A stretch of 64,000 nucleotides of DNA from Erysipelotrichia bacterium. Lineage in GTDB: Bacteria; Bacillota_I; Bacilli_A; Erysipelotrichales; Erysipelotrichaceae. A program made the translations under genes and the position numbers. Positions 48,075 through 54,377 of this stretch are shown piece by piece. Under the pieces are notes generated by a model that did not search any database, was not told the origin of the DNA, and saw nothing but the letters and a program-made list of their open reading frames with translations. The first letter of the stretch is position 1. The number at the start of each line of letters is the position of its first letter. The DNA is taken from assembly GCA_018333955.1 (NCBI GenBank), contig JAGXSD010000001.1:1-64000 (forward strand), given 5' to 3'.

Positions 48075-48128
48075 ATGACAAACCAAATTTCATTCCACGT
48101 GTCTTCTTATTACGGATATTATCATTAA
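48075..48128 (+). CDS. Tyrosine-rich leader peptide
   Basis: This 17-codon frame encodes MTNQISFHVSSYYGYYH. Four of the last six codons are for tyrosine (TAT TAC GGA TAT TAT). The ribosome site AAAGGA stands about ten bases before the ATG, right after a promoter, and the stop codon is followed within four bases by the first of several alternative hairpins. This is the layout of amino-acid operon leader peptides such as those of trp and phe operons in Proteobacteria. The peptide itself is probably unstable; the act of translating it would sense tyrosyl-tRNA. It is too short for usual gene finders. Function is inferred. Confidence 0.7.
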   Translation: MTNQISFHVSSYYGYYH

Positions 48129-48131
48129 CTA

Positions 48132-48239
48132 GGTTTATATCACATTGTAGATATAGACCACTTTATGTTGGAAATATCTACGATGACACCATACACAAGA
48201 ATTCTCTTTTATTGGCCACGCGTAGATGCGTGTTTTTTT
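48132..48239 (+). promoter_or_regulatory. Candidate tyrosine attenuator with alternative hairpins
   Basis: Four pairings can be drawn. A: 48132-48141 with 48150-48159 (10 bp). B: 48145-48154 with 48174-48183 (10 bp). C: 48175-48182 with 48221-48228 (8 bp). D, the terminator: CACGC 48217-48221 with GCGTG 48228-48232, then seven T. A excludes B, B excludes C, C excludes D. A ribosome stalled on the Tyr codons leaves A free, so C forms and D does not. A ribosome at the stop codon covers the 5' arm of A, so B and D form. Starvation for tyrosine would thus allow transcription. Confidence 0.65.
48217..48239 (+). terminator. Attenuator terminator
   Basis: CACGC / GCGTG with a 6-base loop GTAGAT is followed by seven T, 27 bases before the start of the binding-protein gene. 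Confidence 0.7.
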
Positions 48240-48266
48240 ATTTTATCCCCTATGAAAGGAACAACT

Positions 48267-50134: not shown

Positions 50135-50899
50135 ATGTTACAACTGCGAAACATTCAAAAGTCCTTTAACTCAAATTCAAATAATGAAATCAACTTATTT
50201 GATAACTTTAATCTTGAGATTGAAGAGGGAGAGTTTGTCGTCATTTTAGGTAGTAATGGAAGTGGGAAATCCACTCTACTCAATCTCATTGATGGTCAAA
50301 TGATGGTTGATACAGGGCAGATCGTGTTTTTTGATCAAAACATGACATCACTCCCCTCTTTCAAACGTCGTCAAATGATGTCACGAGTATTTCAAGATCC
50401 TGCTTTAGGTACATCTCCTTCACTCACCATTCTTCAAAATATGAGTTTAGCACTCAATAAAGGGAAACCGTTTAATTTGAGTCATGGAGTTGACGTCTTC
50501 TTGAAAGAAGATATCCAAAAGTATGTCTCAATACTTGAGCTTGGACTTGAAGATAAACTTCATGTGAAAGTGTCTCATCTTTCAGGAGGACAGCGTCAAG
50601 CACTGAGTTTACTCATGGCCGTATGTTCTAAACCTAAGTTATTACTCTTAGATGAGCATACTGCTGCTCTTGATCCTAAGACGAGTCAACATATCATGAA
50701 ACTTACTCAACAACTTATTGAAAACTTTAGTATGACCACGATTATGATCACACACCAAATTAAAGATGCTCTTGATTATGGTCATCGATGCATCATGCTT
50801 CATGAAGGGAACATCGTACTCGATGTGAAAGGTGATGAGAAAAAAGCCCTTCAACCTCAAGACTTACTAACACAATTTCATTCTCTCTCCTTAAGATAA
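50135..50899 (+). CDS. ABC transporter ATP-binding protein, TrpZ-type
   Basis: The 254-residue ATPase has Walker A GSNGSGKST near residue 40, the Q-loop in VFQDPALGTSPSLTI, the signature LSGGQRQALSL, Walker B LLLLDEHTAALDP and the H-loop ITHQ. The phrase QDPALGTSPSLTI is typical of the partner of ABC_sub_bind transporters. GAAAGGAAG at the end of the permease gene is its ribosome site. It closes the operon and is followed by a double terminator. Confidence 0.92.
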   Translation: MLQLRNIQKSFNSNSNNEINLFDNFNLEIEEGEFVVILGSNGSGKSTLLNLIDGQMMVDTGQIVFFDQNMTSLPSFKRRQMMSRVFQDPALGTSPSLTILQNMSLALNKGKPFNLSHGVDVFLKEDIQKYVSILELGLEDKLHVKVSHLSGGQRQALSLLMAVCSKPKLLLLDEHTAALDPKTSQHIMKLTQQLIENFSMTTIMITHQIKDALDYGHRCIMLHEGNIVLDVKGDEKKALQPQDLLTQFHSLSLR

Positions 50900-50957: not shown

Positions 50958-52598
50958 CTAGTGCGATAAAATCATTCGATTCCATACTTCCTCAAGTGAA
51001 GTCATTTGACGTAGATTTCCATCTTCAACCACATAGATTTTGTCATAAAGATGTAAGTGTTCTTTAAAGATGATATGGCTGACATTAATGATGGTTTTAG
51101 GTAATGAAAGTAAGTCTTGTTCAATACTTCTTGCAATATCAAGTTCTAGTGAAGCAAAGATTTCATCACATAGTATGACAGTAGTTTCAAGACATAGCGC
51201 ACGCGCTAACATCAGTCTTGCGCGTTGCCCTCCTGAGACATTAGCTCCGTTATTAACTAACACTTCTTCAAGTTTTAAGTGACCTAATCCTACTTGTTTT
51301 AAGGCCTTATTACATACTTCATCACTCACATCTTGATATAAAGTTAGATTATCTTTCACCGTTCCTGAGAAGATAAAGCCAATTTGGTCTACTGTGGTAA
51401 AGAGTGAGTAATAATCAATCGGAATTAATGAGAAGATGTCGATATCATTAAGCGTCACTTCGCCGGCTTTAGGTTGAATATTTTGTCTTATGGTTTTAAG
51501 AATCGTTGATTTCCCTGCTCCACTTCGACCTACAATGAGTACCTTCTCATCTTTCTTGATACTTAAGCTCACATCATTTAAAATAGATTTTTCTTCATCT
51601 GGATATCCTAAATCAGTTTGATTAAAGGCTAAAACCTCAAAATGATTGACACTGTTATGTCTTTGTAGCACTGGGACTTTAAGATTAACATCAAACTCAT
51701 CCAATACTTTGACAATCCCTTTCATTTGTGTGAGCACTGGCGAGAATTGAGATAATGGCCACATCACATTACCAAAGCTTGATGCGACCACAATGATACT
51801 TCCTAAACCTGCTTCTGTTGATCGAGCAAATAATATCCCAGTAACCACTAATCCAAAAAGAATGATACTTTGAATGAATTGATTAAGTGCTGCAACCTGA
51901 GTTTCTCTAACATCCACAATGTAGTTATCTTTTTGAACTGAAGTCGCATGATGCATAAATTGATTGAGTCGTGTTGCTTCAAGTTGATGTTGTTTAATAA
52001 TATCAAAGCCTTGTAAGGTTTCTTCCACAAAAGTGGTGTACTTTTGAAGTGATGCGGATTTTTTAGCTTCACTTTTTTGGACTGGTTTACTATTGTGGGA
52101 AGTGATGAACAAGAAGAGGAAAAGCAAGATAAAGGCTACTATGACTAAATATGCGGATACCGTGGCGACAAGGACTACGGCCATTAAAAATTGCAGTGTC
52201 ATACGAATCATTTGTAGTAAATTGAGTAAGTACTTATCTTGAAAGCGATCAAAATCATTGGTTAGGTTTGAGCGATATGTGTTGACTTTTTCTTTTTGAA
52301 GTTGTGTGATGTCTTGTTTTAAGAGTTCATGAACATAATGCCGCTTCATAAGAAGTAAACTTTTCTCAATGTATTGAGATCTAAGGTAGGTGCCAATTAA
52401 ATCCATCACAAGTGAAATAAGCAATAACACCATCATCCACTGGGCTGTTTCAAGCATCAAATCAAGTTGTTTGTTTAAACCATAATCTGTAATAAAACGT
52501 AATAAGTAAATATTGATTCCATTAAGAACGACCATGATGATCATGTTCAATACATTAACAACAAGCCAACCTTGATGGCCTAAATGAAGTTTCTTCAT
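50958..52598 (-). CDS. ABC exporter half-transporter (membrane domain plus ATPase)
   Basis: This 546-residue protein has six membrane segments in residues 1-290 and an ATPase domain after 330. Walker A is GRSGAGKST, the signature NVSGGQRA, Walker B TVILCDEIFASLE and the H-loop is in INVSHI. Its start overlaps the end of another half-transporter gene by four bases, so both would form a heterodimer. The ATP sites look slightly degenerate in the D-loop (ASLE for SALD), as in asymmetric exporters. The pair could export a drug, lipid or peptide. The partner is interrupted by a stop codon, which puts the function of this one in doubt. Confidence 0.85.
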   Translation of the reverse strand: MKKLHLGHQGWLVVNVLNMIIMVVLNGINIYLLRFITDYGLNKQLDLMLETAQWMMVLLLISLVMDLIGTYLRSQYIEKSLLLMKRHYVHELLKQDITQLQKEKVNTYRSNLTNDFDRFQDKYLLNLLQMIRMTLQFLMAVVLVATVSAYLVIVAFILLFLFLFITSHNSKPVQKSEAKKSASLQKYTTFVEETLQGFDIIKQHQLEATRLNQFMHHATSVQKDNYIVDVRETQVAALNQFIQSIILFGLVVTGILFARSTEAGLGSIIVVASSFGNVMWPLSQFSPVLTQMKGIVKVLDEFDVNLKVPVLQRHNSVNHFEVLAFNQTDLGYPDEEKSILNDVSLSIKKDEKVLIVGRSGAGKSTILKTIRQNIQPKAGEVTLNDIDIFSLIPIDYYSLFTTVDQIGFIFSGTVKDNLTLYQDVSDEVCNKALKQVGLGHLKLEEVLVNNGANVSGGQRARLMLARALCLETTVILCDEIFASLELDIARSIEQDLLSLPKTIINVSHIIFKEHLHLYDKIYVVEDGNLRQMTSLEEVWNRMILSH

Positions 52599-54202
52599 GA
52601 TGCACCTCCTAAAGGTTCAAGTTCAATAACTTTATCAAATCGAGTTCTTAAATACTCAATATGACGATGCGTCACACAAACCATGGTTTTATTGAGTTTT
52701 AATAAGGTGTCATAAATCTTTTGTGATGTGACATCATCCAAACTTGCGGAAGGCTCATCCACAAACATGATTGGGAAATCATGGTAGAGTTCACGTGCTA
52801 TCGAGACGCGTTGACGTTGACCACCTGAGATATTTGAACCATCATTCACTAATATGTGATTTTCTTTAAGCTCTAAGGTTTCCACCCACTCACGCAAATC
52901 CACATCCTCTAAGACTTTCATCAGCTTATCATGATCATAGGTTTGATTTAGGATGATATTATTTTTAATTGAATCATTAAATAAGAAATGAGATTGACGA
53001 ATATAGCCTGCAGCTTCTAAAAAACTTTCATGATGGATTTGTTTAAGCTCAACCATATCCACATTAACTTCTCCACCATACGATGATAAGTTTTGGGCTA
53101 ATCATCCCACTAACGTTGTTTTCCCAGACCCTGAAGGACCAATCACAAGAACCTTTTCATGAGGTTTAATGGTAAATTCAAGTTGTTCAAACACTTTCTT
53201 AAGTTCATAACTAAAGGTTAAGGATACCACTTGCAGTTCTTCTTCAAACTTCATTTCAGAAGTGCCAATGATCTGCGGTTGGGTTTGAGTGATGCGATCA
53301 AATATATCAACGGAAGTACGAAGACGGTTAATAAAATTAAAACCACTTATCATACTCCATACAAGTTGTCCAATAAGATTAAAGACTAAAATAAGGGCTG
53401 TCAAAGTGATTTCATCTTGCACAAACAAGTAAGTAGCATAGACATAGATCACCATTTGATAAGAACCCGCAAGCCAATGATTCAAATTCGCTTGAATCTC
53501 ATCGATTTGAAAGGCTTTCTTCTTAATCTGTTCTAAGATTCGAATGATGGATTCAAAAGGTGGTTTAAAGAATTCTTCCGCATGATAGAGCTTAATCACT
53601 TCCAATCCTTGAAGGATATTGGATAGTGAGGTATTATACCCCGCATTGGCATTTTGCGTAAGTTCTTTATTTTTGCGTGCAATCGGTTTGAAAACACTGG
53701 TGATGCCATAAAGAAGTAAGGTCACTCCAATGGTCGACAAAGCAATGAGTGGTGAAATGAATAATAAAACAATGATTCCTAAGAAGAAGCTTCCAAAACT
53801 AAAGATGATGTTTAGAAGCGATAAGAAGAAATCTTTTTCAAACAAGTTAATATCAGACACTAACATCGACATGAAATGTTCCTTAGGAGTTTTACGATAA
53901 CTCTCATAGGTATGACTCATTATCTTTTGATAGGCAAGAGTTCTCACTTGAATGAGGATGTCTCTCATAAAGCCAATCCGTAAGAAGCGTGAAATCATTT
54001 GAACTCCAATGGGTGTAAAGGCAAAAAACACGACCCAAAGAATACGAGTTCGTATACCAATCCATGTGGCTTCTTCAATAATTCCAAACGCATTGGAGAG
54101 AGCTAGTGTTGAAAACAACCCACTTAATGTGGTTAGGAATGCTCCAATCATGTAAAAAATAAATTGCTTGCGATTTTGTTTTAGTAGTTGTGTAATACTC
54201 AT
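52595..54202 (-). pseudogene. ABC exporter half-transporter interrupted by an in-frame TGA
   Basis: Residues for the six-helix membrane domain and the start of the ATPase domain, including Walker A (GPSGSGKTTL), are encoded from the ATG at 54202 to TGA at 53102-53104. The same frame continues without another stop to 52595 and holds the rest of the ATPase: YIRQSHFLFNDSIKNNI, NISGGQRQRVSIAREL, IMFVDEPSASLD and the H-loop VTHRH. The total of about 535 codons is normal for a half-transporter. One base change has cut the gene in two right after Walker A. Other genes here use TGA as stop, so it is not read as Trp by rule. Recent mutation, read-through or a sequencing error are possible. Confidence 0.82.
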
Positions 54203-54377
54203 AGTAATTCTTTCTAAAAGTGATTCTAGTCTTAATTTTATCATATAGTTAACCTTAATCATGGTAACATATCACAAATTTTATGTAATTTAGACTTTGG
54301 CTGTTGCTCAGACCACCACATGGCTTGACACTCATCCCATTATGCGATACGCTTTTGTTTGTGAAATGAGGTCACAT

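Follow-up and report, generated by a model that had tools for sequence, protein, structure and literature searches.

One half of a heterodimeric ABC exporter is interrupted by an in-frame TGA after Walker A, in an assembly labelled Erysipelotrichia bacterium. The stop probably arose recently, when one base of what was most likely a Cys codon mutated to give TGA. It lies in the window, the whole stretch of 64,000 nucleotides that was analysed (contig JAGXSD010000001.1, positions 1 to 64,000 of the forward strand). The remainder of the gene is intact, its relatives have a conserved Cys at the position of the stop, and the genome uses the standard code with RF2 and has no selenocysteine genes. 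We infer that the organism truly carries this base, that the change is recent and that the activity has been lost.

The Interrupted Half-Exporter and Its Partner

On the minus strand, positions 54262 to 52595 form one frame, broken once (Table 1). The breaking codon is TGA in the given sequence and is codon 387 of the read-through frame. It is the fourth codon past GKTT (GKTT-L-V-G-stop), as the sequence-only reading of this DNA had described. The frame is open for 386-389 codons before the TGA and for 168 after it; judging by alignment, the true start is probably the ATG at 54202 (residue 21). With the TGA read as X, a half-exporter of 555 residues is obtained, with one ABC_membrane and one ABC_tran match in Pfam (PF00664 at 38-307 and PF00005 at 362-508, the latter continuous across the stop). 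Taken alone, the first piece matches ABC_membrane and just the first 28 positions of ABC_tran, and the second piece matches ABC_tran positions 47-136. The two domains of an ABC half-exporter are found in one frame only with the TGA as X. The earlier claim of one complete half-transporter across the stop, with its motifs intact, is therefore borne out. Walker A, the ABC signature, Walker B and the H-loop are the names of the motifs that we take these residues of the broken half-exporter to represent.

The partner gene, previously described as intact, is indeed so: it encodes 546 residues and carries both ABC domains (Pfam). In each of the 15 orthologous loci, a match to this partner is located directly downstream of the gene (in L086 and L088 it is incomplete); the half-exporter and its partner are thus a conserved pair. 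Two adjacent half-transporter genes, kept together in relatives, are also what is seen in heterodimeric ABC exporters (ABCB/ABCC-like, Pfam ABC_membrane and ABC_tran). In contrast to these, one half is cut here after Walker A, and neither half reaches the cut-off of any NCBIfam model. When solved structures were searched by sequence, just distant ABC exporters, such as MRP4 and ABCB1, were returned and no clue to the substrate.

Table 1. Features of the interrupted exporter locus and tRNA genes discussed in the text. Unprefixed positions are those of the window.
Feature	Position	Strand	Remark
In-frame TGA	53102..53104	-	column is Cys in 12 of 15 orthologous loci
First part of half-exporter gene	53102..54262	-	transmembrane domain and Walker A, 386 codons
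Rest of same frame	52595..53101	-	signature motif, Walker B, H-loop; earliest potential start codon is GTG 53062
Walker A	53114..53140	-	GPSGSGKTT
ABC signature	52814..52834	-	NISGGQR, intact past the stop
Walker B and following Glu	52751..52771	-	IMFVDEP, intact past the stop
Partner half-exporter	50958..52598	-	intact; 4-base overlap with end of broken gene
tRNA-Trp(CCA)	L062 1498-1571; G000:C58:26919-26992	-	only one of the genome
Repeated tRNA run	L039 = G000:C58:97729-98536; L040 = C61:52-892		

Elsewhere in the window, a conserved leader (48076-48245, plus strand) is found upstream of ABC importer genes that end at 50899. Within it, a tiny frame has the ending SYYGYYH (MTNQISFHVSSYYGYYH in this genome), which assemblies G003 and G001 share. 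The tiny frame is followed by CATTGTAGATAT...ATATCTACGATG and then by ACGCGTAGATGCGT, a hairpin with a T run that resembles a terminator; its CGTAGAT can pair alternatively with ATCTACG. Single folds of the leader give z values of only -0.66 to -1.50, and Rfam has no family for it. From its sequence, the element looks like a Tyr-sensing leader-peptide attenuation system of a TrpX-like importer.

The Codon in Relatives and Constraint on the Gene

Across the 15 orthologous loci (42-82% identity), the column of the TGA is occupied by Cys in 12 and by Val, Thr and Asn in one each. The Cys codons are TGT or TGC, each one base away from TGA; the three nearest congeners all have TGT, and no other TGA occurs at this column among the 15 loci. 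The residue had been supposed to be variable in relatives, which does not hold for the orthologues. Given this conservation, a Cys codon is a more probable ancestor than CGA or TGG, the sense codons named earlier as possible, and would be the simplest ancestor of the TGA. Since Cys codons, the TGA site included, account for about 2 of the 63 one-step routes to TGA in the half-exporter gene, random nonsense would have struck the conserved Cys by a mild coincidence. The comparison loci with the best matches come from metagenome assemblies that bear the labels Erysipelotrichaceae, Erysipelothrix sp. or Firmicutes, which places the assembly with the stop among Erysipelotrichaceae-like bacteria. 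L097, which ends at residue 164, and L098-L103, distant ABC proteins of 27-31% identity, were not counted as orthologues.

The rest of the broken gene shows no decay. None of the 97 columns that are invariant across the 14 other aligned orthologues is altered in this sequence. The dN values to the two nearest congeners are 0.128 and 0.136 before the stop and 0.131 and 0.122 after it, with 0.148 and 0.145 for the partner (L088, with its frameshifts, was left out for the gene, and the incomplete L086 and L088 for the partner). As no invariant column has changed and dN is equally low on both sides, the gene appears to have been under constraint until now. Because dS to these congeners approaches saturation, no trace would be left by a stop that is recent on this scale. 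This lack of decay is predicted alike by a recent mutation, by an error in the sequence and by useful read-through.

The same exporter carries lesions in two relatives. At L095 7132 (plus strand), in another species, the partner half-exporter has an in-frame TAA where the 13 other aligned sequences have Glu. Because it affects the same exporter, its loss may be tolerated, and the exporter may thus be dispensable. In the related assembly G004 (locus L088, 5001-6610), the orthologous gene itself contains two single-base frameshifts. These are probably assembly errors, as the name of the contig gives a coverage of 2.85 and split matches also occur there in the partner and in DegV (L088, L075). 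The two cases cut both ways: the exporter is possibly dispensable, and draft assemblies of this set carry errors.

Genetic Code and Other Split Genes

UGA is a stop codon in this genome. The gene prfB is present, with CTTTGAC near its start, presumably the prfB frameshift site. In 464 kb, a simple longest-first rule picked 380 genes with 150 residues or more; the terminator is TGA in 91 of them, TAA in 238 and TAG in 51. The anticodon of every one of the 44 tRNAs above the cut-off was read: UCA is absent, and the single tRNA-Trp has CCA. One run of tRNA genes is present twice, closing contig C58 and opening contig C61 (Table 1), and represents either a duplicated cluster or an assembly overlap. 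PF00005 has 65 places genome-wide (E up to 0.001), and a stop interrupts just one, in this gene. The marks of table 4, in which UGA encodes Trp (many in-frame TGA codons, a UCA tRNA and loss of RF2), are absent. This recoding was rejected on account of the prfB gene, the lack of a UCA tRNA, the common use of TGA as a terminator and the single interrupted ABC place. A suppressor tRNA with UCA was rejected as well, none being present among the 44 tRNAs.

The search for other split genes covered 464 kb, made up of the window plus 20 stretches elsewhere in the genome, and took same-frame neighbouring pairs of at least 60 codons each, filtered for overlap; this test is blind to frameshifts and to pieces below 60 codons. 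The 38 pairs were joined by X and scanned with Pfam, and a domain crosses the stop in this pair only; in the other 37, no Pfam domain spans it. General assembly breakage is thus not seen by this test in the 464 kb. With one true case among the 38 candidates, the genome cannot be called rich in decayed genes or visibly prone to error, and conserved genes with an internal UGA are uncommon. A blastp comparison between loci (pieces of at least 40 codons; 293 candidates from this genome and 212 from relatives) recovered the broken half-exporter again. Two other candidates of this genome had one match each, one being antisense to the half-exporter and the other taken for antisense. Inspected by eye, the rows of the relatives (e.g., L084 at 11042) contain only one that resembles a real split, the partner in L095. 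A literature search found nothing on premature stops or read-through in ABC transporters of Erysipelotrichs.

Alternative Explanations

The sequence-only reading had left three options: a recent stop, read-through or a sequence error. These were the right ones, with the data favoring a recent stop or an error and read-through less; selenocysteine, for which the match with Cys calls, was missing. That the TGA results from a sequencing, consensus or strain-mixing error, the gene of the organism being intact, is the main alternative, though less probable than a real mutation. The assembly is a draft, with 1.81 Mb spread over 64 contigs (rated 99.29% complete, with 4.13% contamination), everything else in the broken gene is intact and constrained, and the lesions of G004 indicate that such errors occur in this assembly set. 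However, the compared genes of the window between ~45 and 62 kb align to G003 in one piece, the half-exporter excepted, the true split is a single case in 464 kb, and the site is not a homopolymer. It is very improbable that the gene has become two genes, with a restart at the GTG at 53062 and assembly of the two pieces. This start lies 39 bases after the stop codon and is preceded, eight bases upstream, by a ribosome-binding-like GGAG, but the cut would divide one folded domain between Walker A and its remainder and leave out 14 residues. Moreover, GGAG and GTG encode residues (GEVNV) that are identical in the two near congeners, so that both belong to the ordinary coding sequence rather than forming a new feature.

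A TGA aligned with a conserved Cys has the classic look of selenocysteine, and this was tested for that reason. Selenoproteins have been found in sequence data by such alignments, cases with a single sequence being left as candidates only, owing to possible sequencing errors (available part of PMC1088965). The present TGA shares the alignment with those cases, with Cys in 12 of the 15 loci; it differs from what that part describes in that it is known from one sequence only, with neither Sec genes nor a fold after the TGA. No match to selA or selD was found in the genome, despite its rated completeness, and none to selB above the cut-off in this genome and 20 relatives; the best matches below it, mostly frames of ~400 residues, were taken for EF-Tu. 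No tRNA-Sec exceeds the gathering threshold, the best place being a tRNA-Ser by ARAGORN. Four stretches after the TGA, folded in search of a SECIS-like hairpin, gave z values of +0.33, -0.85, -0.19 and -0.32, not clearly better than shuffles, and Rfam returned no match there at E up to 5. With no machinery, an ordinary RNA fold and no second TGA at the column, selenocysteine was rejected, its probability being close to nil. Reading of the UGA by the near-cognate tRNA-Trp(CCA) at a useful rate, giving a full-length exporter with Trp at the stop, is improbable. The anticodon stem of this tRNA (TCGGT/ACCGC) has four pairs, with U27.C43 open at its top. In the available part of PMC13092985, this four-pair type makes up 8.9% of bacterial tRNA-Trp(CCA) genes, and its overexpression in E. 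coli increased UGA read-through ~2.5-fold. A read-through of 6% at a TGA in B. subtilis is cited in the consulted part of PMC7918605, and the absence of decay in the half-exporter gene would fit a useful product. Against this, the single change by itself gave no in vitro read-through according to the part of PMC13092985 at hand, which leaves the effect at native levels unassessed. The relatives have Cys, not Trp. Across the order, four pairs are found in 11 of the 15 tRNA-Trp read with a sequence pattern, this one included, and five in 4, the open top being U.C, U.U or C.U (a match was obtained in 17 of 21 genomes; the pattern did not fit L142 or L143, the latter a tRNA-Gly). The stem is therefore a shared background trait and not special to this gene, yet among the other candidates in the 464 kb none shows a conserved domain spanning a TGA. 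The genome has the tRNA shape treated in PMC13092985, as far as that source is available, but no visible excess of in-frame TGA codons, and it uses TGA as a common terminator. The four-pair tRNA may make UGA leaky and slightly raise the chance of some full-length product. That the stop has been kept because UGA is usefully read in this way, with the full-length exporter made at a low, perhaps tunable, level, is at least as improbable.

A Probable Recent Nonsense Mutation and Its Meaning

A recent nonsense mutation thus probably accounts for the interrupted gene. One base change, most likely at a Cys codon, would have created the TGA in one half of the heterodimeric ABC exporter. Translation would stop after Walker A, and the nucleotide-binding domain would consequently be lost. 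The exporter would then be off, or reduced to a trickle from the ordinary leaky reading of UGA. In-frame stops are reported in the available part of PMC7918605 to occur widely in bacterial genes and, for the most part, not to last long. The nonsense-interrupted genes under purifying selection considered there resemble the present one in the single in-frame stop, the constrained flanks and the restriction to one lineage. In the same part, sharing between species is required, whereas here the stop comes from one genome and sharing cannot be shown.

A bacterial gene interrupted by nonsense is of a kind already known, and this is an ordinary case; as it stands, it is of little import, another interrupted gene in a draft genome. 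It does illustrate cleanly why sel genes are needed before a TGA aligned with a conserved Cys is called a selenoprotein. Read-through, if true, would make this gene a natural test of a four-pair-stem tRNA-Trp making UGA leaky under the standard code.
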